A stretch of DNA of 25,082 nt from IMG/VR virus record IMGVR_UViG_3300027752_000105, positions 1 to 25,082 of that record. One strand, 5' to 3'. The notes below the pieces were generated by a model, which was given only the letters and a program-made list of their open reading frames with translations, did not search any database and was not told the DNA's origin. Position 1 is the stretch's first letter; the number at the start of each line of letters is the position of its first letter. Of the stretch, positions 2,875 to 24,510 are shown in pieces. The stretch is from a virus. The position numbers and the translations under genes were made by a program.

Positions 2875-3147
2875 TTATGGTTGTGTGGTACATGATATTC
2901 CTGCATCATCGCTATAAAATCCAACCGCAGCAGGGGTTTGTAAAGCGTTTGTATCGTATAAAAGCCCCGTGACAGCAGCTAATGTTGTTATCCCTGTTCC
3001 TGCAGCAAAAACTGTTTTTTGGATTGAGGTTCCGCAGCATAAATCATCTGCTGTTGCGGCGTAGCAGAGTATTAATTGTGAAAAGCATGAAGCACACGTT
3101 GCTTGAGCTAACAAGTTGCCTGATGTTTGTTGTCTGTAATTTGGCAT
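2875..3147 (-). CDS. Small cysteine-containing tail adaptor protein
   Basis: This 90-residue protein is made of two pieces. The N-terminus (MPNYRQQTS..., CASC at 18-21) duplicates that of the gene that follows it in transcription order. Residues 25-86 (LCYA, DLCCGTS, TGLLY, GFYSDD, final Cys) duplicate a module inside the 585-residue protein upstream of it. It is therefore almost entirely assembled from parts found in its neighbours. A role as a tail accessory or fibre adaptor is inferred. It could also be the remnant of a longer fibre gene, but its start, stop and leader (AAATAAATAATT-ATG) are intact. Confidence 0.7.
   Translation of the reverse strand: MPNYRQQTSGNLLAQATCASCFSQLILCYAATADDLCCGTSIQKTVFAAGTGITTLAAVTGLLYDTNALQTPAAVGFYSDDAGISCTTQP
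2890..3075 (-). repeat. CC-type tail module, copy 3 (protein-level repeat)
   Basis: This codes for residues 25-86 of the 90-residue protein. It shares DLCCGTS, TVF, VTGLLY and GFYSDD, in the same order and spacing, with the copy at 3447-3632. The DNA has diverged much more than the protein. Confidence 0.75.
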
Positions 3148-3164
3148 AATTATTTATTTATTTA

Positions 3165-4922
3165 TTATTGATCACACTCACTACAAGTGTTTAATACAGT
3201 AAGTCCAGCAATATCAACAGAGCCTAGCGTACCATCGTCATTTGTCCATTGTTCTTCTGTCTGTGTCAAGTCACCGTACAAAGCAAAACAGCCAAGTGCG
3301 ACAGGAGGAGATGCGTCGGTATAAAGTGATACGGTAGGTACATTAGGTGGATCGTACAGGATTGTATCAGTTCTCGCAACTCTGGTTTCAGAACCATTTC
3401 CGTAGCAACTTCTAAGTAGATAGTAATAGTAAGTAGGTACCGGTATTGTGCACGTTATACTAACGTCATCACTGTAGAAACCATCTTGCGCTTCTACGTC
3501 TAAATCACTTGTTGTATATAAAAGACCAGTTACACTAGCTAAATTAGCAACATTTCCTGCTACAAATACCGTACGAGATTCAGAAGTACCGCAACATAAA
3601 TCTGCTTCAGTTCCTGCATAGCATAACGTTAACTCTGTATATGATTGAACTACGATTATATTAGTTAAATCTAATACCGTTTCCATATTAGTGCCTCCGT
3701 AAGCGTCCATATTACCGCCAACAGCAATAGTACCACCAGTAGCGGGGTCTTGTAAGCTAATTGCGGCTATAGGATAAGCAGCTGTTCCTCCGTTAAGAAC
3801 AGGATTAAGATTACTCCAATCGTCAATTGTTGGTTGCCTAATTAAAATTAAGTTTGAACTTACCATTGGTGTTATACTCCATCCAAAATTTATAACCTCT
3901 GCGGCATCTCCTACAAGGGGAGACTGAAATGGCAAATAAGATTTTACAACGCTACTTTGAGTTGCAATCCCAGCAGGGAATAAAACGCTGAAAGTTACTT
4001 CTGTATTAACTCTTTGTTGTATTGTAAAAGGATTGGGCTGCGTAAATGGGTTAACTAAATCCCCAGACAATAATATTGAATAAGTAGTGTTAGTTGTTAC
4101 GGCTGGGAATACTATTAGGAATGAATATGAACCATTTACTCCCATTGTTATATTTGTTACTAGATCAACACCGTCCATAGCTATTGTAAACACAGATCCT
4201 GAGCTACCAAATACCGTCATAGTTCTAGTTTCTCCTCCAACTCCAATCAAGCTAGTGTTTATTGAATACGCAGAAATTCCTACCGTGGGATTATATATTT
4301 CAGAAGCATTAGCTTCAACTATTATGCTATCTCCGGTGACTGAATAATTTGGAAATGTATAGTTTACAGCAAAATTTACTTGTATAAGATTGCCTGCTGA
4401 GTCGTTAGTAAGTGTTGGAACAATAGAGTAATCAGCTAAGGTACCTATAGCTAAAGAAGCTGTAGGTAGCACTGGGAAGTAGTAGCCATTATCAGCCTTT
4501 ACCACTAGGTTTGCTATTTCTGATGTAGAAAAAATTAAACCATTACCACTATAAGGTGCTGTTGATGTAGGAGGCGTTGGAGGTGAGGTAAAAGTAGTGT
4601 TGTAAGTAACTATCCCGGCTACGGATACCCCAATTAAAGATGCATAGCCTGTTATACACAAAGCTATTAATACATCATTATTAGGCATTTCACTAGGTTC
4701 TATATATAATATTACGCACTCTATGTTAAATCCTGACTGCGTAAAAGTAACGGATTGAACAAAAGGAGGTAACGGGTTTTTAGGTAAAAAATTAGTAGCA
4801 TTTATTTCATACCCCGCATTAGGAGTTATAATCAACGTTACAGAGGGGTGAGCCTGCGTCCAGTCCACTCCTACAGCTTCATTAAAACTTACTACATTTA
4901 CTGTAAAATTGCTAAATGCCAT
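3165..4922 (-). CDS. Large tail-fibre-like beta protein with embedded CC module
   Basis: This 585-residue protein is rich in Thr, Ser, Asn and Val and poor in charge, which suggests tandem beta-sandwich (Ig-like) domains over residues 1 to about 425. I cannot name the domains. A cysteine module follows at 431-492 (LCYA, DLCCGTS, TGLLY, GFYSDD). A C-terminal domain begins with PTYYYYLLRSC and ends in the CxxC motif CSEC, two residues from the end. Its neighbours are the 1511-residue tail protein before it and two small adaptor or fibre proteins after it. A host-recognition fibre or tail appendage is the likely role. An alternative is a carbohydrate-binding BACON-type array as known in crAss-like phages, but I cannot show that from the sequence. 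Confidence 0.75.
   Translation of the reverse strand: MAFSNFTVNVVSFNEAVGVDWTQAHPSVTLIITPNAGYEINATNFLPKNPLPPFVQSVTFTQSGFNIECVILYIEPSEMPNNDVLIALCITGYASLIGVSVAGIVTYNTTFTSPPTPPTSTAPYSGNGLIFSTSEIANLVVKADNGYYFPVLPTASLAIGTLADYSIVPTLTNDSAGNLIQVNFAVNYTFPNYSVTGDSIIVEANASEIYNPTVGISAYSINTSLIGVGGETRTMTVFGSSGSVFTIAMDGVDLVTNITMGVNGSYSFLIVFPAVTTNTTYSILLSGDLVNPFTQPNPFTIQQRVNTEVTFSVLFPAGIATQSSVVKSYLPFQSPLVGDAAEVINFGWSITPMVSSNLILIRQPTIDDWSNLNPVLNGGTAAYPIAAISLQDPATGGTIAVGGNMDAYGGTNMETVLDLTNIIVVQSYTELTLCYAGTEADLCCGTSESRTVFVAGNVANLASVTGLLYTTSDLDVEAQDGFYSDDVSITCTIPVPTYYYYLLRSCYGNGSETRVARTDTILYDPPNVPTVSLYTDASPPVALGCFALYGDLTQTEEQWTNDDGTLGSVDIAGLTVLNTCSECDQ
3447..3632 (-). repeat. CC-type tail module, copy 2 (protein-level repeat)
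   Basis: This codes for residues 431-492 of the 585-residue protein. It matches the module in the 90-residue protein across its whole length and, more weakly, the C-terminus of the 1511-residue protein. Confidence 0.75.
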
Positions 4923-4937
4923 GTTTGTGATTATATG

Positions 4938-7900
4938 TTAATTTGTTTGTTTTATATAAAATCCATCCGCCGCGGGAGATCCATCTATCAATAATACAGA
5001 TGCTGCGTCGATAAATTCTTCGCCATCAAGTATGTAGTAAGTTCCTGTCTGCGGGTTGCAGCAAACTGCTGATTCTGTGCTTCCATATTGCAAGACTATA
5101 GGCACTATTGGCGTAACAGGTGTAAAACAATCAGGATCAATTATATTTGTTACTTTAAATGCGGTTATGTCTGTATCTCCAGTTATAGCACTTGCTCTTC
5201 CAATTCCCTGTACATTAAATTCGTGGGAGTCTACATTGTTATCGCAATCATCTACAAAAAATGTAGGCAATCCTTTTATATAGTTGTAATATTTCCCTTC
5301 TTTATTTATAAGCTCTTTAACCTCACCTTCTTGTAAATCTGTTACTATAGAGTTAGCATACCAGCCTTTAGTTGTTGAAAATTCCGTAGGTATTAATTGC
5401 TGCGCCTGTATTTGAGCTAATGAAAAGTTTTTATCGCCTGTTGCCGTAGTCTTGTATATATATTCACGAGAATCTGTTCCGCTATAACTAATGGTTCTAA
5501 AATCTTTTACAGACGTAGGGCTTTCGTTAAAAATAGCGTTAAACGAGCTTTCATAATAAGGTTCTAATCCACCTGCTTCAGAAGGTCCTTTGCCATAAAA
5601 GTTATTATACGAAGTATTAGAATTCATCTCCCAGATCTTACCTGATTTGAAAGTGTAATAAACATTATTTAAACTAATTCCGTTCTCTGGTATATATGTT
5701 TTTCTAGAAGTCCAACCATTCAGATCATCTTTAAAAGACACTGTAGTCGAATATGTAGGGTACTCATTAATAAACGCACCACATTCCGGATCCTTATTAA
5801 GTCTATCTGTTTTACCAGCTCCTAAGGTCTGTTGCCAGTAAGGAGTAAGATTATTTAAAGTAACGTTGTAATTCCTTGTATCAGCATCCCAAGAACCGAT
5901 TATCTTTTTATTAATTGATAAGTTGTCTTGAAAAAAACCATGCATCCCATAATCCGAAACAGGTGTTATACCGTCATTTGATAACCTTACAACGGTGCCT
6001 CTATTAGAATCTACATAGTATATTCTAAACCCAAATTCAGCAAATGATTCCGGGTGAGTTCCAATACCAAATTCTCCTTTATAAGTTATTGTTTGACCAA
6101 GAACAGCCTTATTAGATGTTACGTTTGAACTACCGTCAGCGTTAAATAAAGCATCCTTACTAGCTAATATCTTCATTGACTTGTTCTCGCACAATGTAAT
6201 TAAATCAGTGTCCCTAGCGTGCAGTTTTTGAATAGAGCCGTATTCGGGATTCAGATCTTTAGTTATGCCTTCAGCTTGTATAAACTGGTTTAAGTTATTT
6301 ACACCTGATATAGAATTAAATATTTGAGAAAATATTAAAGAATTTGCTTTAATTTCTTTCCTATAAGGCACGTCTAATGGAGCGGAAACAATCGGGCCTT
6401 TGTCTATAGTGACAGCATTGTAATCATCTCTTATTCTATTTGATTCAACACCATTCCCGTAAGAAAAGCAATTAAACCAATCTAAAGTTTTATCATCCGC
6501 ATACTCACTAATAGGTATAGCGTTTGAAGCTTGGTGATATATATCTATATCAATAGCTTCTTTTGGCTCCGTTTCAAATATAGCGGGATTAGAAGATGAT
6601 AGTACATCATTTGAATCTACCCCAACTTCTCGTATAATTTCAATACCCGCAGGTGTAAATCCTGATTCAAAATCTTTATTTAACACCACTCTGACGGATT
6701 TTCTAGCGTTAAAATTAGTTGTTCTTGTATATACACCACCAGCTGTCCTCCAGCCTCTTCTTTGATAAAAAACCTCCCAGCTTTTCACCGTATATACACC
6801 GCTTTTTTTTCCGTTTTCATCAAAAAATCTTATAGTGGTATTATTAGCGCTTAAGTAATTATCTAACAATGGAATTGATGGGACAGACTGTTTTATAGGG
6901 GAGCTTTGCCCTCCACCATAAGCTGCAAAACCTACGCCAAACCAATTTGAGCCAGCGACAGGCTTCCTTATTTTTGTTTGCCAATTATTAGAAGGGCCTT
7001 GAGGATCTGTAAACCCCGGGCCCGAAAACCCTCTATTAGATGCACCTGCTCCCCTGTTAGCAATTGCATCAGGGACATCTATAGATTCTAAAATACCGTA
7101 TGTTGGTTCAAACCCTGCAAAAGAGCTTATAACATAGTTGTCAAAATTTGCATCTCTATTTATTTTTGCAAAAAATCTACCTTCGTATTCAGGTTTCTTT
7201 TCTACAATTTTTTCTTTTATAATTACAGTATACTCATTCCCTGCTATTAAACTGTCTAGAAAAAGAGCGTCTTCCCCAAGAGGTTCTTCTAAGGTAATCC
7301 TATATGTTATGTTACTACTATCTGAAGATGATACTGGTCCTCCTGAAGCTATTGCATATTCGCGAGTAACGTTTGTGTCTTGAGCTATTACAATAAAATT
7401 ATCCGCTGCAAATCCTTGGTTGAACCTTGCGTTTTCTGATGTACTAGGACCTTGGAATGAAAATCTTTGAACGCCAACACCTGGATTTGTAGGAGAACCA
7501 CTACTAGGTACTTTAACATCTGCTTCAGCTATGCCTGAAAGCCTAGTTGCTATAAAATCAGGAGCTTCATTTTGTATTGCTAATACTTTAAACCTAGCCT
7601 CAACAGGTACAGCTGAGTTATTATCATGTTCTTTTTTCAGCACCAAGTAGGTTTCTTCCAAAACTTTATTTCTTTCAGACGAAGGGAATGATAACCATAT
7701 GTTTCCATCCTCTGCAAAATAAAACCTATCTAAGGCTATATTGTAATACTCATTAGATATATCCTTTATAAAGTATTTAAAATGTGTTGCAAATGAAGGT
7801 ATATCAGAGCCAGCTAAAGTGGCTATTGCTTTATTTACTTTTGATGAAGCTGTTACAGGTACGAAAAATGAACTATTATTAGTTGTAAATACAGGGGTTT

Positions 7901-9473
7901 CTCTACCGTATTTGTCTAAAAAATTAGCGCCTATTTGATATGTTCTTATTGATTTTAAAGATTGCTCCGGGAATCTAACAGCTTCAGAATGGTTGTTTTG
8001 CTGTATAGCTGTTCTTATTTTTGGCTCTACTAAATCGTATTGTTGAGTATATCCTCCATATATTAATCTATTTCCTGTTATTTCTTGAGCTTTCGCTTGC
8101 AGGGGTACATTATCGTACGGTCTAAGTAGCTGGTTAGAATTGACTATTGCTCCAATTACTTCGTTTAATATTGTAAAGCTAGTTATACTTTTATCAGATA
8201 TTGAATCCACAACATATACCGCAGTGGAGTTAGATGCTTTATAAAGTATTTCAATTTCCTTTACGCTTTCATCTCCCCATTCTAAGTTGCTTAATATAAT
8301 TTCTCGGGCATTGTTAACCATACCTACATTAAAGCCATCGCTTGACAAGTACTCAAATTCACCTCCAACAAATACTGTTTCAGTAAATGGAGAAAATCCA
8401 GAAACCTGATTGTCATTATACTTCCATCTGGTTGCAAATCTAGGAAAAACAAACTCAAACAAAACGCCACTTTCAACCAAAAGAACTTCCCAAACAATCT
8501 CCGGCGTTCTAGGTATATCGGCAGATATAGCCTGTATGTGACACTGCAGTGTGTTACCTTTTTGTAAATTACCTGCTGAATCCAGGGGTCCCACAATCAA
8601 CAATGTTACTTCATATTTTGATAATACTCCCGCAAGTGAAGTTTCTTCCCCTTTTAGAGTTATCATATCTAATGCTTCGTAATTGTCAGGGGCAGGGGTT
8701 GTATTTATAGATACATAACCCAAAGCGTTATCTTCAGCATATGTAGGTAAAGAAATGTACACCAATGGGTCGTTAGGGTCTTCGTATGTAAAATTAGCAT
8801 ATGTTCCACCTCGAATAGTGCTTAACGGAGACAAACCTGTACCTGCTCCCCCTCTTCCGCTTGCGTTAGCTTCAACGGAAGGTGCTGTTAGAGGTTTTTT
8901 CCTTATAACAGTAGTATCAGCCTCTACAAAATCTCTATTATAAATCTTAGAGTGTGTAATAAAATTAGGTGTAGAATTAACCCAATCGTCTATAATTATA
9001 CTTTTTGGTTCTGTTTGATTATCTGTCCAAAGCAATAAGCCTTCTAATATGTTTATACCGGTAATTAAGTTGTCAGCATTAAAATTAAAAATATTTTGTG
9101 TGTCTACTATTAACGGTAAAGTAACTTTAGTAACAGTATTATAACTAACTATTGCATCATTGGTATCTGAAGTGATAAACCAATACACAATATCTGAATT
9201 AGGTTCCGCAATGGAGCCTATACATATAGCATTAGGTAGAAAATCTATATAAACAGCTGGATCCCACGTAGTGTATTCTTTTGTACTAGAATTATAGCTA
9301 GAATATGATTTTTCAGTACTACCTTTTAAATTCTGAAATGTTCCCACCTGAGAGGTATCAGATGAAGCAACTTCTAAATTCAAAGCATCTCGATATTCGC
9401 CATTAGGAAGTAACCTTTCGTCAAGGTCTTTATTCATTTTCCCCCCGGTAAATGTATGTATTAATTCTGGCAT
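4938..9473 (-). CDS. Very large tail 'stabilization'-type protein
   Basis: At 1511 residues this is the largest protein here. It opens with MPELIHTFTGGKMNKDLDER and then PNGEYRDALNLEV, a signature I recognise from large tail proteins of uncultured marine phages and of the crAss-like 'stabilization protein' group. Those proteins occupy the place of T7 gp12 (tail tubular B) after the ring proteins. The body is mixed beta sequence; around residues 1080-1180 a stretch containing CENKSMKIL resembles beta-propeller-like nozzle proteins, though that is only an impression. The final 51 residues (ESAVCCN, DGEEF, AADGFYI) are a variant of the CC module found in the next two fibre-like genes. It starts 5 bases after the upstream stop and is probably translated in series with it. 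No lysozyme or depolymerase motif was seen. Confidence 0.8.
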   Translation of the reverse strand: MPELIHTFTGGKMNKDLDERLLPNGEYRDALNLEVASSDTSQVGTFQNLKGSTEKSYSSYNSSTKEYTTWDPAVYIDFLPNAICIGSIAEPNSDIVYWFITSDTNDAIVSYNTVTKVTLPLIVDTQNIFNFNADNLITGINILEGLLLWTDNQTEPKSIIIDDWVNSTPNFITHSKIYNRDFVEADTTVIRKKPLTAPSVEANASGRGGAGTGLSPLSTIRGGTYANFTYEDPNDPLVYISLPTYAEDNALGYVSINTTPAPDNYEALDMITLKGEETSLAGVLSKYEVTLLIVGPLDSAGNLQKGNTLQCHIQAISADIPRTPEIVWEVLLVESGVLFEFVFPRFATRWKYNDNQVSGFSPFTETVFVGGEFEYLSSDGFNVGMVNNAREIILSNLEWGDESVKEIEILYKASNSTAVYVVDSISDKSITSFTILNEVIGAIVNSNQLLRPYDNVPLQAKAQEITGNRLIYGGYTQQYDLVEPKIRTAIQQNNHSEAVRFPEQSLKSIRTYQIGANFLDKYGRETPVFTTNNSSFFVPVTASSKVNKAIATLAGSDIPSFATHFKYFIKDISNEYYNIALDRFYFAEDGNIWLSFPSSERNKVLEETYLVLKKEHDNNSAVPVEARFKVLAIQNEAPDFIATRLSGIAEADVKVPSSGSPTNPGVGVQRFSFQGPSTSENARFNQGFAADNFIVIAQDTNVTREYAIASGGPVSSSDSSNITYRITLEEPLGEDALFLDSLIAGNEYTVIIKEKIVEKKPEYEGRFFAKINRDANFDNYVISSFAGFEPTYGILESIDVPDAIANRGAGASNRGFSGPGFTDPQGPSNNWQTKIRKPVAGSNWFGVGFAAYGGGQSSPIKQSVPSIPLLDNYLSANNTTIRFFDENGKKSGVYTVKSWEVFYQRRGWRTAGGVYTRTTNFNARKSVRVVLNKDFESGFTPAGIEIIREVGVDSNDVLSSSNPAIFETEPKEAIDIDIYHQASNAIPISEYADDKTLDWFNCFSYGNGVESNRIRDDYNAVTIDKGPIVSAPLDVPYRKEIKANSLIFSQIFNSISGVNNLNQFIQAEGITKDLNPEYGSIQKLHARDTDLITLCENKSMKILASKDALFNADGSSNVTSNKAVLGQTITYKGEFGIGTHPESFAEFGFRIYYVDSNRGTVVRLSNDGITPVSDYGMHGFFQDNLSINKKIIGSWDADTRNYNVTLNNLTPYWQQTLGAGKTDRLNKDPECGAFINEYPTYSTTVSFKDDLNGWTSRKTYIPENGISLNNVYYTFKSGKIWEMNSNTSYNNFYGKGPSEAGGLEPYYESSFNAIFNESPTSVKDFRTISYSGTDSREYIYKTTATGDKNFSLAQIQAQQLIPTEFSTTKGWYANSIVTDLQEGEVKELINKEGKYYNYIKGLPTFFVDDCDNNVDSHEFNVQGIGRASAITGDTDITAFKVTNIIDPDCFTPVTPIVPIVLQYGSTESAVCCNPQTGTYYILDGEEFIDAASVLLIDGSPAADGFYIKQTN
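4941..5093 (-). repeat. CC-type tail module, copy 1 (diverged, C-terminal)
   Basis: This codes for residues 1461-1511 of the large tail protein. The paired cysteines, the central hydrophobic segment and the ADGFY end match the modules at 3447-3632 and 2890-3075. The similarity is weaker and the trailing cysteine is missing. Confidence 0.55.
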
Positions 9474-19454: not shown

Positions 19455-19729
19455 TACTTTGATTTCCTTTCAGCAAAACCTTTAAACTCGACTGCTTCAA
19501 TTTCTTTTCTTGGCTTATTTTCTAGTATACGTTCCTCTTCTTCTATACGGTTTAATATTTCAAAAGCGTCGAATATAGCTAACTTTTTAGTTGCGGCAGC
19601 ATTTTTTAATTTATCAGCTGTTAGGTCGTCTTCAGAATCTATTATAGGCTCTTTAGCAACTTTTATCAGCTCTTCAACTGCCACTTGCCCAGCTTGGATT
19701 ATATTCTTCTTCGTTTCCTTGATATTCAT
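19454..19729 (-). CDS. Putative terminase small subunit
   Basis: This 91-residue helical protein lies directly before the large terminase, with a one-base TAATG overlap, where small terminase subunits normally are. It has the pattern DDLTADKLKNAAATKKLAIF followed by DAFEILNRIEEEE, which I recall as a conserved protein next to the large terminase in marine phages. There is a basic C-terminus (GFAERKSK). A clear helix-turn-helix cannot be proved by eye. DNA recognition for packaging is inferred mainly from position. Its start lies inside the preceding gene, a 56-base overlap. Confidence 0.55.
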   Translation of the reverse strand: MNIKETKKNIIQAGQVAVEELIKVAKEPIIDSEDDLTADKLKNAAATKKLAIFDAFEILNRIEEEERILENKPRKEIEAVEFKGFAERKSK

Positions 19730-20264
19730 ATTTGATTGTGATTGAATTAACGGGTACTCGGTATAACCTCTGCCCTTCTATTACAAATTCGTATTCCGAA
19801 CTCGGTTTAAAACCTACTAATGATTCTTCTTTAATTTCATCATTACCAAATTTTACAATACCTATTAATGGTTTTTCAAAATCTACAGAAAACATTTTGT
19901 CTTCTTTTATAGGTTTAACAAAACAGAATCCTTCCAGAGCTTTCCATTCACCATCTCTTTTAAACGCATATATTTGATCAGCTTGAACAGTATAAACATC
20001 TTCGCTTAAATAATTCTTACTATCTTTTTCCTTGCCTCTTACATCTCTAAATCTTCTAAATACATTATGATGCACAATTACGTCGTCACCTTCTTTTAGC
20101 TCTTCATTGCCAACTAATGGTAGATTCAATATTGTACCCACTCTATTAGTATAGCTGTGATTTTGTAAATCTGTATTAAGTAATAATGTTTGTCCCCCTA
20201 TTTCTTTAGAACCTGTGGTTCTATTCCCTTTAGGTGATACTAAATAATTAAAAACACTCTGCAT
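19674..20264 (-). CDS. Beta-rich protein, possibly two GroES-like folds
   Basis: This 196-residue protein appears to consist of two similar beta units. The first (about 20-105) has VGTILNLP, LKEGDDVIVHHN and a closing ADQIYAFK. The second (about 112-182) has FCFVKPI, GIVKFGN, a VGFKPSSEYEF segment and a closing VNSITIKYEY. The order of a capping strand, a G-x-V/I strand, a 'GD-V' turn and a final I-A/I-Y strand resembles the GroES barrel. That is only a fold-level guess, and the usual mobile loop is not clear. It starts one base after the upstream stop (TAG-A-ATG). A role in capsid protein folding or as an assembly chaperone would fit the real chaperonin genes 4 kb upstream, but the function is unknown. 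Confidence 0.6.
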   Translation of the reverse strand: MQSVFNYLVSPKGNRTTGSKEIGGQTLLLNTDLQNHSYTNRVGTILNLPLVGNEELKEGDDVIVHHNVFRRFRDVRGKEKDSKNYLSEDVYTVQADQIYAFKRDGEWKALEGFCFVKPIKEDKMFSVDFEKPLIGIVKFGNDEIKEESLVGFKPSSEYEFVIEGQRLYRVPVNSITIKYEYQGNEEEYNPSWASGS

Positions 20265-20746: not shown

Positions 20747-20896
20747 CTATTTGGTTTTTGTATATGGAAATGCTTTATTTAGCGCTTCTTTTCTTTTGTT
20801 ACATCCGCAATCTCCAGGAAGCTTATCTACTATAGCCTTGATCCCTGTTGCTTTTGTAATTTTTTCTATTGTGTCTCCTAGTCCTTTTGATTCCAT
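20747..20896 (-). CDS. 49-residue protein with GDCGC motif
   Basis: This short gene fills a gap that would otherwise be 170 bases. It starts with an ATG overlapping the stop of the preceding gene by one base (TAATG at 20898-20894) and ends with TAG at 20749-20747. The product is helical and basic: GLGDTIEKITKATGIKAIVD, then KLPGDCGCNKRKEALNKAFP. The CGC pair and the pattern 'TKATGIK-xVD-LPGDCGC-xRK-ALN' look conserved in marine phage genomes, as I remember them. Two close cysteines could bind metal or crosslink, but no function is known. Confidence 0.7.
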   Translation of the reverse strand: MESKGLGDTIEKITKATGIKAIVDKLPGDCGCNKRKEALNKAFPYTKTK

Positions 20897-21363
20897 TAGC
20901 AGTTCCATTTATCTAAAGCTAACTTTTTTCTAGTTGGCTCCCCGTTAGGTTTTTTCATAGCTCCGGGCATTCCACCCATTCTGGCGCAAAATGATTTTCT
21001 ACGCTTAGCATCTTTACTACCTTTTTTAAGTTTAGAAGGCTTTGTTGTAACTGCTGTTTTTAATTTAGATCCAGGATTGTCTCTTTTATAAGCGTCAACA
21101 CCTTTTTGATTTAAACCGCCAGTTTTAGATTTACCTTCTTTACGTGTCCACGCTGCTGTTTTTTTAGCGGGTGACGCTTTATCTACAGCTTTGCTTACCA
21201 AAGAACCGATTACAGCTTTACCAGCCATAGCCAATAGAGGCGCTATTTTTGCAGGTGATTTTGCACAACTTCCTTTTTCCTCCTTCTTTTTACCAGGTAC
21301 TGGAGAATACCCTTCCCAGCATCTTTTTAATACTGGGGATTTAGGTTCTTGCTGGTATGCCAT
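20896..21363 (-). CDS. Basic SPAK-motif protein with DUF6321-like C-terminus
   Basis: This 155-residue, strongly basic protein contains SPVLK at 9-13 and SPAK at 36-39 and 64-67. Between the first two motifs lies a segment with CWEGYSPVPGKK and a second cysteine (GSC). A mildly hydrophobic stretch follows at 41-60. From about residue 72 to the end the pattern AWTRKEGKS, GGLNQKGVDAY, RRKSFCARMGGMPG and KPNGEPTRKKLALDKWNC matches my memory of the DUF6321 domain of marine phage proteins, whose function is unknown. The start overlaps the previous stop (TAATG at 21365-21361), and the end overlaps the next gene the same way. High lysine content suggests a nucleic-acid- or capsid-interior-associated protein. 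Confidence 0.75.
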   Translation of the reverse strand: MAYQQEPKSPVLKRCWEGYSPVPGKKKEEKGSCAKSPAKIAPLLAMAGKAVIGSLVSKAVDKASPAKKTAAWTRKEGKSKTGGLNQKGVDAYKRDNPGSKLKTAVTTKPSKLKKGSKDAKRRKSFCARMGGMPGAMKKPNGEPTRKKLALDKWNC

Positions 21364-22418
21364 TATTTAAAGTATTTCATTTTTAAAGGCGACTTCTTTT
21401 TAAAGAAATCTGGTGTTTTCTTTGGTAACACCCCAGATAGTTTTTCAGTATCTGTAGCTTTTGTTTTGGCTATCTCTGCAAAATTTATAGCCTTTGATGA
21501 ATTTACCGATCCTTCTTTAATAGCTTTATCTTGTGCAGTTTTTCCTCCTACATCACTTAACTTCATGTCTCTCTCTGCGTCCAGTACATCTTTACCACTT
21601 TTAGTACTTATGTTTTGCTTAGACTGTCTTTTTACGCTTTCATTCTCACCTGTAGAAACAGCTAAATTGTCTTTCGCTTGTTGCCCTTGTCTTTTTAATC
21701 TTTGATCTCTTTTATTGTATTTTTTACCCGAACCCTCTATAGCATTACCATCTTTGTCTTTTTTTATAGTGGAAGGATCAATAGCTCCTGATCTACGTAG
21801 ATTTCTATCAACTTTCCTTTGAGCAGCTTTCTTAGTTCTAGCTGTATGCTTTCCAGCTCTAACAGTGTTACGTCTGTCTAAAGAAGTTTGAGCATCACCT
21901 TTATCTCTAGTTTTGTTTGCCGTAAATTGATTGCTTGTTGTAGTCTCTCCTTTAACTATTTCTTTTTTCTTTGTATCTGGTTTAAATACTCCAGTACCTA
22001 TGGTGTTGTTAGCTTTACCCTCCTTAGTTGGGTTAAGCGTGCCATAAGTTTTCATATTGTAAGCATTCACTTCTTCTTGAGACACCCCTACGTCAGCCGC
22101 CGTTTTAATTCTGGTTTTTTCTTCTCCAGGAACATTAACTTCTTTTTCAGTATCTGGAGCGGTTTCAGTTTTAAGAACATTAACACCTACTTTTGTTGAT
22201 TCTACAGGTTTATCATCATTGTTCTGCTTAAATGGAGAAGCCTTCATAGAATACCCTCTCATCTTACTTGGTGATGGAATATCTTTAGTCTGATTGTTTC
22301 CGTGAACGCCGGCAGGACCAACGTTTAATAAAGGTTCTTTCACACCTTTCTTTTGATTAAATAAGCCAGTGCTTACTCTTGCCGTGATCGGCGTGTTTTT
22401 ACTACCTTTAATTCCCAT
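21363..22418 (-). CDS. Large low-complexity SPxK-motif protein
   Basis: This 351-residue, Lys/Thr/Asn-rich protein is probably largely disordered. Near the N-terminus it carries TPITARVSTGLFNQ and LLNVGPAGVHGN, then SPSKMRG (49-55) and SPFK (61-64). The C-terminus is SPLKMKYFK, with SPLK at 343-346. The centre has a basic stretch rich in Arg and Lys (about 185-250). The PITAR block is shared with the preceding gene's product. It ends with the TAATG overlap to the DUF6321-like gene. I do not recognise a fold. A virion-interior, DNA-binding or protease-processed protein is possible (see findings). Confidence 0.7.
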   Translation of the reverse strand: MGIKGSKNTPITARVSTGLFNQKKGVKEPLLNVGPAGVHGNNQTKDIPSPSKMRGYSMKASPFKQNNDDKPVESTKVGVNVLKTETAPDTEKEVNVPGEEKTRIKTAADVGVSQEEVNAYNMKTYGTLNPTKEGKANNTIGTGVFKPDTKKKEIVKGETTTSNQFTANKTRDKGDAQTSLDRRNTVRAGKHTARTKKAAQRKVDRNLRRSGAIDPSTIKKDKDGNAIEGSGKKYNKRDQRLKRQGQQAKDNLAVSTGENESVKRQSKQNISTKSGKDVLDAERDMKLSDVGGKTAQDKAIKEGSVNSSKAINFAEIAKTKATDTEKLSGVLPKKTPDFFKKKSPLKMKYFK

Positions 22419-22437
22419 TGTGATTAGTTATTAGTTT

Positions 22438-23049
22438 TTAAAATTTCAGTGTTGGTGCTTCCATGTCGTCCATCGGATTAGTGGCTCCTAAATTTGTATC
22501 AATTTTTTTAGCTTTAGGTACATCTAATGCTTCTTGCTTTTCCTTTGTTTTTTCTGGAGCTAAGTCAGCGGTTTTACCTTTTGTACTTTTATCAGGTTGA
22601 TTAAGAGCGCCTCCTACAATAGATCCAACGTCTACAAATTCCTTGTTAGTATTTGCAGCCCCGTCAACCAATGCTTGGTTCATCTTAAGTGGTGAGTTTT
22701 TAGCTCTTGCTGTAATAGGTAAACAAGTCTTTTTAGCAGGGCTTCCTAAATTACCGCTGTAACCATCCTGAAAATAAGCTTCACCTCCATAAAAGTTTTT
22801 ACTAATTTTAGCAGGAGATCCTATACTATATCCATTGTTGCCTTTAACCCCTAATCCTTGGGGGCCTATCTTTTTAGCTGGAGACGTATTTCTTTTATTA
22901 AAAGAACTCATAGCTTGTTTCAAAGATACATCTTCTCCGCCAACACCTTGACGGTCGCCAGCTGCAGATTTGTCTTGAAATCCAGCTTGATTCCTGCTTT
23001 TAGTTTCTTTATTTAACCCACTAGCTTGACCTCTAAATGTTATTGCCAT
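22438..23049 (-). CDS. SPAK-motif protein with four copies
   Basis: This 203-residue basic protein has SPAK at 56-59, 78-81 and 103-106 and SPLK at 119-122, spaced 22, 25 and 16 residues apart. Between the third and fourth lies CLPITARAKN, sharing PITAR with the next gene's product. A segment around 82-101 is Gly/Tyr-rich (NFYGGEAYFQDGYSG). The rest is low complexity, ending in an acidic patch (DDMEAP). It begins two bases after the upstream stop. There is no signal peptide or enzymatic motif. The regular motif array suggests binding or cleavage sites. Confidence 0.7.
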   Translation of the reverse strand: MAITFRGQASGLNKETKSRNQAGFQDKSAAGDRQGVGGEDVSLKQAMSSFNKRNTSPAKKIGPQGLGVKGNNGYSIGSPAKISKNFYGGEAYFQDGYSGNLGSPAKKTCLPITARAKNSPLKMNQALVDGAANTNKEFVDVGSIVGGALNQPDKSTKGKTADLAPEKTKEKQEALDVPKAKKIDTNLGATNPMDDMEAPTLKF

Positions 23050-23051
23050 AA

Positions 23052-23405
23052 TTATGATTTTTTATATGCTTCGTTTTCCCATTCAAAATCAGGATGCCCT
23101 TCGTTCATGGTAGCTCTTTTGTAAACTCTTGCTGGTGATCTTGTATCTCTTTTCCAAGTTACAGAATCTTCAGAGTATTGTAATCTCCCTTGAGCTAGTT
23201 GATCTAAGTGAACCTTTTCGTGTTCTACAGCACCCTCAACCTCTTTATCAGAAAGTTTATTGCTTACGAAAATTGTTCCGTCTCTGTTAGCTTCAGCTTC
23301 AACTCCATCCTCTAAATCGTCTTTAACGATCACAGGTGTTCCAAATTGAGAAGTCTTTTCGTGAATACCAAACACATCACTATGAGATTTAAGCTTGAAT
23401 GCCAT
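23052..23405 (-). CDS. Minimal HExxH zinc-metalloprotease-like protein
   Basis: This 117-residue protein contains HEKVH at 62-66 inside a helix preceded by SDKEVEGAV, the classical zinc-binding HExxH of zincin proteases. A possible third ligand is one of the glutamates in FEWENEAY (108-112) near the C-terminus. The N-terminal part is beta-like, with DGTIFVSNKLS just before the helix, as in small phage metallopeptidase-like proteins. It also carries SPAR at 90-93, related to the SPAK motif of its neighbours. Length is well below normal for secreted zincins, and no signal peptide is present, so it would act in the cytoplasm or virion. It starts with a TAATG overlap with the preceding gene. Catalysis is inferred from the motif only. 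Confidence 0.72.
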   Translation of the reverse strand: MAFKLKSHSDVFGIHEKTSQFGTPVIVKDDLEDGVEAEANRDGTIFVSNKLSDKEVEGAVEHEKVHLDQLAQGRLQYSEDSVTWKRDTRSPARVYKRATMNEGHPDFEWENEAYKKS

Positions 23406-23800
23406 TATACTTTTCTGTCTTGACCGCCTCCTGAAGCGCGCGTTCCCGCTTTACGCATAAACTTACTGGTTTCTTTAGGTTTTACATAACCTTCATCACC
23501 CGGTTGCTTTGGTTTGGTCACTTTAGTAGAAAGTGCTTTTCTAATTTTAGCTGGTGATGGGGCTGGTTTTGGTGTTTTTTCATCTTTCTTATTGCTCCCT
23601 TTCACTAACTTCTTTTTTTCGTACGGAGGTAAAGCAACGTTTTTTCCATCGGGTCCAAAAACAGAGTTGTCTTTCATTTTCTTCTTCTCAGAGACAGTCA
23701 TGTTTTCTGCTGCAACCATTTTTTGTTTTGCTGGTGATGTTACAGATCCCCTACCTGCTCCTAAACTGTTTGGTCCAATTCCTTTTCCGTTGTTTGCCAT
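23405..23800 (-). CDS. Lysine-rich SPAK-motif protein
   Basis: This 131-residue protein is very basic and probably disordered: Gly/Asn-rich at the start (NNGKGIGPNSLGAGRGSV), Lys/Pro-rich in the middle, and ending in RASGGGQDRKV. SPAK occurs at 22-25 and 82-85. It is the first of five neighbouring genes with this motif, and its stop overlaps the start of the HExxH gene (TAATG). The role is unknown; see the finding on the SPAK cluster. A DNA-condensing or capsid-interior protein would fit its charge. Confidence 0.68.
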   Translation of the reverse strand: MANNGKGIGPNSLGAGRGSVTSPAKQKMVAAENMTVSEKKKMKDNSVFGPDGKNVALPPYEKKKLVKGSNKKDEKTPKPAPSPAKIRKALSTKVTKPKQPGDEGYVKPKETSKFMRKAGTRASGGGQDRKV

Positions 23801-23815
23801 TTTATTGTTTTTAGT

Positions 23816-24256
23816 TTATCTTTCTTTATCTTTTATCATATCGTCAATAGCTTTGTTGTAAACCTTATCCGTGTATGTTTTGTTCTTGTAAAAGGTACTT
23901 CTAGCAGACGTTGGTAAATCCTCTTCTCCTAGTAGTATCCTGTAAATTCTGTTTATTAAACTTTTACATTTATAAGAGGTACTATATATATTAGTCTTCA
24001 TAGTAGTCCTATTCCTTTTTCTCCAAACATCAATCCATCCCTCTCTTCTTAATCTCTCCCATCTTGCTTTATCCCAAGAGTATGTATAAACACCGTCTAT
24101 GAAATCATTACGTGTAAATTGCTTTTTGCAATCCAAATATATTAATAATTCAATGTCAGCGTCTTTAAGGTCATAAGTTTTACAGGCCCATTTTCTAACA
24201 AGCCTGTAATACTTAAGTAGATTCATTTCTCTTAAATCACTTGAGTCTAGCTTCAT
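23816..24256 (-). CDS. Winged-helix (MarR-like) DNA-binding protein
   Basis: Residues about 12-110 of this 146-residue protein read like a winged helix: a first helix (YYRLVRKWACKTY), ADIELLIYLD for the second helix, QFTRNDF before the recognition helix, then DKARWERLRREGWIDVWRK and a basic wing (RNRTTMKTNIY). A further helix (LINRIYRILLG) follows, then a basic tail. The 'L-YL ... FT--DF ... W-RL-REGWI-VW' order is typical of MarR-like folds, though no ligand or partner can be given. It overlaps the GroES-like gene by four bases (ATGA type). It could be a phage transcription regulator, but operator sites are not visible. Confidence 0.7.
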   Translation of the reverse strand: MKLDSSDLREMNLLKYYRLVRKWACKTYDLKDADIELLIYLDCKKQFTRNDFIDGVYTYSWDKARWERLRREGWIDVWRKRNRTTMKTNIYSTSYKCKSLINRIYRILLGEEDLPTSARSTFYKNKTYTDKVYNKAIDDMIKDKER

Positions 24257-24510
24257 TCCACTAAAACTACATCCCCTATAGTAATTACAAAATACAATTT
24301 ATCATTCCACTCTATCCCGTGTCCTGCGTGTTTATCGTATCTAACAACATCGCCTTCTTTAAGAAAATCTATTTTATCGCCTACGCTAATTATGTTACCC
24401 TTTAAGTACCTAACGTCGTGGTTTTGGCTTTGTGTTATTTCAAGTCCTCCTACTGTCTTCGGAGCTTCTTTAATTTTGTCGATTATAATAAAGTGATTAA
24501 TTGCTTTCAA
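24253..24510 (-). CDS. GroES-like co-chaperonin, shortened
   Basis: At 85 residues this is shorter than the usual 95-97. It begins with a beta strand (MKAINHFIIIDKI) followed by a mobile-loop region with TVGGLEITQSQ, comparable to the GGIVLT loop that docks on GroEL. Then come GNIISVGD, the KEGDVVRYDKHAG turn and a closing VITIGDVVLVE. Compared with bacterial GroES, the segment between the VGD strand and the next strand is only a few residues long, so the roof hairpin appears to be missing, as in T4 gp31. It would cap a GroEL ring, host or phage. The start overlaps the GroEL-like gene by 14 bases, and the order GroEL then GroES is the reverse of bacterial operons. Confidence 0.82.
   Translation of the reverse strand: MKAINHFIIIDKIKEAPKTVGGLEITQSQNHDVRYLKGNIISVGDKIDFLKEGDVVRYDKHAGHGIEWNDKLYFVITIGDVVLVE

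Follow-up and report, generated by a model that had tools for sequence, protein, structure and literature searches.

A marine phage gene cassette that joins a recurrent SPxK motif to a predicted mini metallopeptidase

Results

The stretch of DNA analysed here (the window) is an entire virus record, IMGVR_UViG_3300027752_000105 of IMG/VR, whose 25,082 bases are a fragment of a marine phage genome encoding TerL (phrog_6681, E = 2e-161) along with portal, virion structural and tail-like proteins; we took an acidic protein without a PHROG match as the scaffold and one virion structural protein as the major capsid protein (MCP). Five adjacent genes, gpA to gpE, lie between a gene for 146 amino acids and the small genes that precede TerL, with the end of GroEL, GroES and the 146-amino-acid gene on their upstream side. 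Their products share a short Ser-Pro-x-Lys motif (SPxK), which stands at junctions between small protein modules, at positions where homologous modules of T4-like marine phages carry glutamate.

All five genes are on the minus strand. gpA (20896..21363; 155 amino acids) is basic, with a net charge of +28, and consists of a CWxGY module and a C-terminal DUF6321 module (Pfam PF19846, 73 bits against a cut-off of 28.5; phrog_4689, E = 7e-29); SPVLK (21325..21339) precedes CWxGY, one SPAK (21247..21258) follows it and another (21163..21174) immediately precedes DUF6321 in the context SPAK-KT-AAW. gpB (21363..22418; 351 amino acids), which matched no PHROG or Pfam family above cut-off, has a PITAR / EPLLNVG leader, SPSK (22263..22274), SPFK (22227..22238), a variable basic middle and a C-terminal SPLKMKYFK (SPLK at 21381..21392). 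In gpC (22438..23049; 203 amino acids), GPQGLG-like, FYGG and PITAR modules are set apart by three SPAK sites (22873..22884, 22807..22818 and 22732..22743) and an SPLK after PITAR (22684..22695); an earlier note on this DNA, made from the sequence alone, had seen a PITAR block in two products, and these are gpB and gpC. gpD (23052..23405; 117 amino acids) is a predicted mini zinc metallopeptidase with H62-E63-x-x-H66 and E110, its zinc-binding HEKVH at 23208..23222; it also bears the SPAR that the note had reported (23127..23138), within a six-residue hairpin-loop insertion. gpE (23405..23800; 131 amino acids; basic) joins a KGIGPNSLG leader to two SPAK sites (23726..23737 and 23546..23557), and the gene at its place varies strongly in length among relatives. 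The note's description of all five products as basic and of low complexity holds for four (net charge +10 to +33) and fails for the HExxH protein gpD, which has a net charge of -6 and is predicted to fold.

Sites of the form SP-x(1,2)-[KR] number 13 in the five products (SPAK 7, SPLK 2, and SPSK, SPFK, SPAR and SPVLK one each), reproducing the note's count exactly, against a mean of 1.45 and a maximum of 6 after residue shuffling; none of 5,000 shuffles attained 13. SP[AVLIFM][KR] was observed 11 times against 0.21 expected, and permuted control motifs showed no enrichment (KxPS 0, PSxK 0, APxK 1, NPxK 1). The shuffles thus rule out plain lysine and proline richness, which the note had named among the findings that would undo its claim, as the origin of the motif. 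Its remark that no copy was noticed in other products is nearly right: the 7,260 residues of the rest of the window hold two sites, with SPIK once in a 1,511-amino-acid product and SP-x(2)-R once in a 259-amino-acid product.

Among 181 non-redundant SPx[KR] sites (any third residue, genes of up to 700 amino acids, chance sites included), the third residue is A in 100, F in 21, L in 11, S and T in 7 each, V and M in 6 each, G in 5, I in 4 and basic in 5, which puts A/F/L/V/M/I at 148; the fourth is K in 167 and R in 14. Where the third residue is hydrophobic, S, T or C (162 sites), K (156) or R (6) comes next, followed most often by Q (45), K (43), M (15) or I (11); this selection excludes K and R as third residues and hence cannot by itself judge an SPKK motif. 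Glutamine directly after K was observed 46 times against 6.1 expected (155 sites). We regard SPxK as almost certainly a specific recognition motif. It occurs in 12 of 120 portal homologues and 1 of 153 TerL homologues, and a literature search on the names SPAK, SPLK and SPxK returned nothing on phages, judged by titles or the opening of abstracts.

Scanning IMG/VR with gpD gave 93 relatives and with TerL at least 600, 80 of each being kept; the contigs of these relatives are fragments. Many show the order GroES, 146-amino-acid gene, variable SPAK-rich gene, HExxH gene, gpC, gpB, DUF6321 gene, small genes, GroES-like gene and TerL, with losses and insertions, and SPxK copies per protein vary up to 6. 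Across 32 non-redundant homologues of gpB, the N-terminal block and a C-terminal FFKKKSP.KmkYFK are conserved, with PSPSK, SPFKQ and the C-terminal SPxK kept and the middle not conserved. The cassette is real, conserved and not driven by composition.

A second group of small SPxK genes is present in eight of nine related contigs that were read further (L169, L170/L171, L173, L175, L177, L179, L182 and L185), and in all of these except L185 it follows a gene of about 2,840-3,010 amino acids. In G017, which is the ninth contig and a near-twin of the studied phage, a 2,891-amino-acid gene is followed by one for a 252-amino-acid, metalloprotease-like HELGH protein that begins MRSPFKKKF (L186, 67-825, minus strand). 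By tblastn this protein matches four phage records (27-31%), all crAss-like; the match falls within a 'morphogenesis protein' in cr108_1 and, in cr125_1, within a hypothetical gene situated between those for the portal and the major head protein, and SPxK is absent from both of these matching proteins.

The small modules between SPxK sites recur in differing combinations across genes. Counted over unique proteins, many of them closely related, SPxK lies within 35 residues after the GIGPxxLG leader in 15 of 16, within 15 residues before KNFYGG in 32 of 35 and within 35 after it in 34 of 35, and after PITxR in 97 of 125. Three modules, DUF6321, CWxGY and DACYK, are common to the studied group and T4-like marine phages, whose carriers include Syn9 (gp114), P-SSM2 (PSSM2_123) and S-SM1 (SSM1_115). 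DUF6321 modules were found in 539 phage records; no function is attached to the family, no paper was found under its name, and the leader before the module differs by phage group.

We compared the residues preceding the shared modules in loci assigned to the T4-like or the studied-phage type by tblastn to neighbouring genes, counting contexts that are distinct and not independent lineages, and dropping loci found by search patterns that contained the junction (among them three T4-like contexts). Before DUF6321, glutamate stands within five residues in 63 of 64 T4-like contexts, the remaining one being N-terminal, as against SPx(x)K in 8 of 9 contexts of the studied phage's group, where the exception, L102, has a wrongly placed domain start. 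The same exchange is seen at CWxGY (E in 50 of 55 T4-like contexts, SPx(x)K in 12 of 14 of the studied group) and DACYK (E in 11 of 13, SPMK in the single context of the group). SPx(x)K was found in no T4-like context and a Glu-class junction in none of the studied group, where one of the 14 CWxGY contexts, ESPAK-CW in L185, also has E five residues before. Fuller, biased counts for the group give SPxK in 11 of 16 DUF6321 contexts and, by a strict pattern, in 5 of 12 CWxGY contexts, six of the other seven being SPxLK. Most simply, this swap would mean that SPxK plays in the studied lineage the part that xxE plays in T4-like phages, marking the places at which packaged proteins are trimmed as the head matures.

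Among 58 T4-like junctions, position -2 is E in 51 and position -1 is Gly or Ala in 48, and 39 show [VLIMF]xE, for which the background is 0.10. The site of T4 gp21 is (L/I)xE, and the typical T4-like junction before DUF6321, hydrophobic-x-E-(G/A), is of the kind cut by T4-type proteases. The head proteases of T4, phiKZ and SPN3US cut after Glu (PMC5694885), and gp21 removes short N-terminal peptides from T4 internal proteins, with a targeting leader known for IPII and IPIII (PMC9958956). Modules also occur alone, as MAKTAAW in L287 and L294 and MPKDACYKK in L294, so that the open reading frame starts at the same junction; no HExxH match was found in either locus, L287 being cut off upstream. 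In L065 (10001-10486), an HExxH protein is fused through SPMK to a DACYK module of the kind present in cyanophage proteins.

Across 42 aligned gpD sequences H62, E63, H66, W109 and E110 are invariant. A model of gpD (mean pLDDT, the predicted local distance difference test score, 80.2) finds its best PDB match by Z in IrrE/PprI (6.1 and 5.8, middling values), the former over 82 residues at 7% identity, followed by a Mycobacterium regulator, SprT-type proteins, Wss1, minigluzincins (Z about 4; abylysin 4.0 over 70 residues at 19% identity) and other zinc peptidases; a Foldseek search of the PDB had no hit with E below 0.001. gpD also matches viral SprT-like models, and two jumbo-phage proteins, one annotated as an ImmA/IrrE metallopeptidase, match a distant gpD homologue; against 50,697 phage records gpD gave no tblastn match. 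With HExxH and a downstream Glu, as in SprT, IrrE (PprI) and the minigluzincins abylysin and selecase, gpD is predicted to be a zinc peptidase of the gluzincin/SprT/IrrE type, from which it differs by low identity and by the six-residue [ST]Px[KR] loop insertion of one clade. This loop, placed by the model between strands 81-84 and 93-96, is found in 22 of the 42 sequences; the other 20 lack the motif and have a loop six residues shorter.

At least two SPxK genes are present in 61 of 73 cassettes with a loop-bearing HExxH protein, 3 of 16 with a loop-less one and 0 of 7 without HExxH (n = 96), two of these seven being hardly measured (L007, 0 amino acids; L294, 357 amino acids, a strand effect). 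In a 90-row tree built from neighbouring genes, the loop was gained or lost only twice, and eight independent pairs that differ in SPxK differed in the loop by 0.3 on average; independent co-evolution of loop and motif is unsupported by both. The clustering of SPxK genes with a small HExxH gene, which the earlier note had suggested testing, is real as synteny, not as a statistically independent co-occurrence. SPxK genes persist in more distant relatives that lack the loop (L087, L089, L091 and the genome-contig locus L353).

A search with positive controls gave no match to an S78 or ClpP-type protease in any of 18 related contigs, which are fragments, gpD being then the first candidate enzyme; nor was a gp21-like Peptidase S77 matched in the 18, in a search without a positive control. 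No prohead metalloprotease was reported in the phage literature we searched, judged by titles or the opening of abstracts.

Annotation of T4-like cyanophages bears on where DUF6321 proteins reside. The P-HM1 stretch carries the remark 'similar to Synechococcus phage S-SM1 protein' on gp13, gp14, gp15, gp18, gp19, gp20, gp21, gp23, gp3 and the DUF6321 protein (T4-GC 119), and lacks it on gp16, gp17, the scaffold gp22, uvsY, uvsW, gp55, gp46, gp47, one tail fibre gene and one 'minor coat protein'. Within the P-SSM2 stretch, its only carriers are gp13, gp14, gp15 and T4-GC 119. S-SM1 virions were analysed by mass spectrometry, with 41 proteins (PMC3037559), and for that reason we read the remark as 'detected in S-SM1 virions'. 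From these annotation notes, the T4-like cyanophage DUF6321 protein appears to be a virion protein; the S-SM1 GenBank record labels its own T4-GC 119 protein hypothetical.

Discussion

We propose that the five genes form an internal head-protein cassette of a marine phage lineage, probably with a Bacteroidota host. Four would supply basic, low-complexity cargo assembled from small modules and the fifth a mini zinc metallopeptidase, with S-P-x-K-[Q/K/M] acting as a short linear motif at module junctions in place of the T4-like Glu sites. Cargo would enter the procapsid by its motif-bearing leaders and linkers, the SPxK sites would then be cut during head maturation, and the freed modules would stay with the DNA and be ejected with it. 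That the four basic products are packaged inside the head is, on sequence evidence, likely; that SPxK is cut and not merely bound is a proposition for which we see the prospects as even, and the same even chance is what we give the reading as a whole. gpD would be the likeliest cutting enzyme, an assignment that we make tentatively and think rather unlikely to be right. The earlier note's idea of co-packaged internal proteins gains support from the modules shared with T4-like phages and the Glu site that stands where SPxK does, and its DNA-binding option is disfavoured.

Several observations weigh against this proposal. Loci that could be classed to neither type are mixed (DUF6321: 13 E, 5 N-terminal, 3 other; CWxGY: 7 E, 10 other). 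By a crude test, a T4-style N-terminal leader is present in 3 of 64 T4-like, 6 of 35 unclassified and 0 of 43 studied-type DUF6321 proteins, counts on which we rejected a general T4-style N-terminal targeting sequence for these proteins. Another protease may be missed in the fragment contigs, loop-less HExxH homologues mostly belong to cassettes where SPxK sites are few or absent, and the co-occurrence of motif and protease is essentially that of one clade, as the loop changed only twice. In gpD the motif sits on a hairpin loop, after HExxH and before E110, and a cut at SPAR would therefore split the enzyme. SP[AFLM]K occurs in none of 72 MCP and 77 scaffold homologues, a set that includes relatives without the cassette motif, nor in the window's own two proteins; and the long conserved flanks of the C-terminal SP[LM]KMxYFK of gpB resemble a docking peptide.

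The last three points, on their sequences, would fit equally well a tag that stays uncut and docks on one partner, be it the MCP interior, the scaffold or the portal, with avidity arising from its multiple copies in a protein and the tagged metallopeptidase being co-packaged. The insertion of the tag as a hairpin in a folded gpD, the MRSPFKKKF start of the second metalloprotease-like protein in G017, the variable copy number and the conserved extended flanks of gpB all suit docking, which we consider a serious alternative with clearly less than even prospects; on its own it leaves unexplained why the motif stands at the positions of T4-like Glu sites and at the starts of stand-alone modules. 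The DNA-binding option treats SPxK as a minor-groove unit of basic, DNA-condensing proteins, like the SPKK motif of histone H1 (S/T-P-K/R-K/R), in keeping with the strong basicity of four of the five products and the Arg/Lys richness of DUF6321 itself. A basic third residue is found in only 5 of the 181 sites and in none of the 12 SPx[KR] sites of the five products, no SP[KR][KR] occurs in the window, the fourth residue is overwhelmingly K, and the sites lie at module joints and in an acidic enzyme too; for the rarity of that basic third residue we take SPxK to be a recognition motif and not an SPKK clamp, and rejected the latter as very improbable. A favoured flexible linker, spread by module duplication and recombination without any partner, would account for modules being shuffled and duplicated among genes and for a motif that largely follows one clade. 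We judge such lineage-specific drift improbable, since 162 non-redundant contexts keep the motif, with an added preference for Gln beside it, and gpB keeps its three sites around an unconserved middle.

The proposed cassette resembles the T4 proteins IPI-III and Alt, which carry a targeting sequence trimmed by gp21, in having a short motif at leader and module junctions and homologous modules in T4-like marine phages. It differs in that the junction is S-P-x-K and not x-x-E, a metallopeptidase belongs to the cassette, the MCP and scaffold lack the motif, whereas in T4 shell and core are cut too, and no gp21-type protease was matched in the search without a positive control. On the Glu site the cassette falls outside the T4 internal-protein/gp21 system, yet it probably works like that system. 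gpA shares its C-terminal DUF6321 with cyanophage T4-GC 119 proteins (PSSM2_123, PHM1_110 and SSM1_115) and Syn9 gp114, most of which have CWxGY and DACYK before it; where gpA has SPxK, these proteins have Glu-containing junctions such as VNE-G or FQE-K. The ejection proteins of phiKZ and SPN3US, cut at SxE and AxE (PMC5694885), are likewise head-internal proteins with a phage-specific cleavage motif and differ in motif, enzyme class and phage type.

Were the proposal true, SPxK would allow packaged proteins to be picked out by sequence search in abundant marine phages that are uncultured, that gave at least 600 TerL-bearing stretches in one scan, and whose head contents cannot otherwise be read. 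DUF6321 modules, present in hundreds of phage records, would gain a class of function, the head-maturation enzymes known so far would be joined by a metallopeptidase, and the tag could serve to bring foreign proteins into heads. For head-internal processing, the metallopeptidase would be of a possibly new enzyme class. More speculatively, and in our view unlikely, this would be a second, independently evolved form of head-internal maturation, in which a mini zinc metallopeptidase, acting in place of the serine prohead protease, cuts the S-P-x-K junctions of modular packaged proteins, and in which modules are exchanged with T4-like phages, where they were re-fitted with Glu sites.

Phage relatives, host and neighbouring genes

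The closest named phages are flavobacterial podoviruses. TerL puts Podoviridae sp. ctfjg026 first (62%), followed by Flavobacterium phages of the genus Elemovirus (44%), Cellulophaga phages (37%) and Tenacibaculum phages (32%). The hosts of the named relatives are the flavobacterial genera Flavobacterium, Cellulophaga, Tenacibaculum and Maribacter, and the host of the window's phage is likely in Bacteroidota. In 47-50 kb stretches of five TerL relatives (L007-L011; four isolates and one named metagenomic genome, each covered in part), the SPxK cluster is absent, with at most one scattered site per motif-bearing gene; as these stretches carry no cluster, no isolate bearing it, and no virion proteome of one, was found. 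gpD relatives in a bacterial genome collection came from a Sphingobacteriales and an Alphaproteobacteria metagenome-assembled genome (MAG) and, weakly, from a Paraburkholderia; contigs L353 and L354 resemble this phage group and were apparently binned into the Alphaproteobacteria and Sphingobacteriales MAGs.

The slot before TerL holds lysis-like or tail-fibre-like genes that replace or flank the cassette in L287, L294 and L125, as seen by eye, which marks it as a variable region. A second GroES-like protein (phrog_13932) is encoded at 19674-20264, two genes before TerL, the other GroES lying at 24253-24510, and many relatives have its homologue at the equivalent place. Adjoining the DUF6321 gene, 20747-20908 encodes a 53-amino-acid protein (KGLGDTIEKITKATGIK...DCGCNKRKE) with a tblastn match in 66 of 95 loci that have both flanking genes. 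In the tail region, three neighbouring genes (2875-3147, 3165-4922 and 4938-9473) share, by eye, a Cys-containing motif that reads LCYAATADDLCCG, LCYAGTEADLCCG and LQYGSTESAVCCN.

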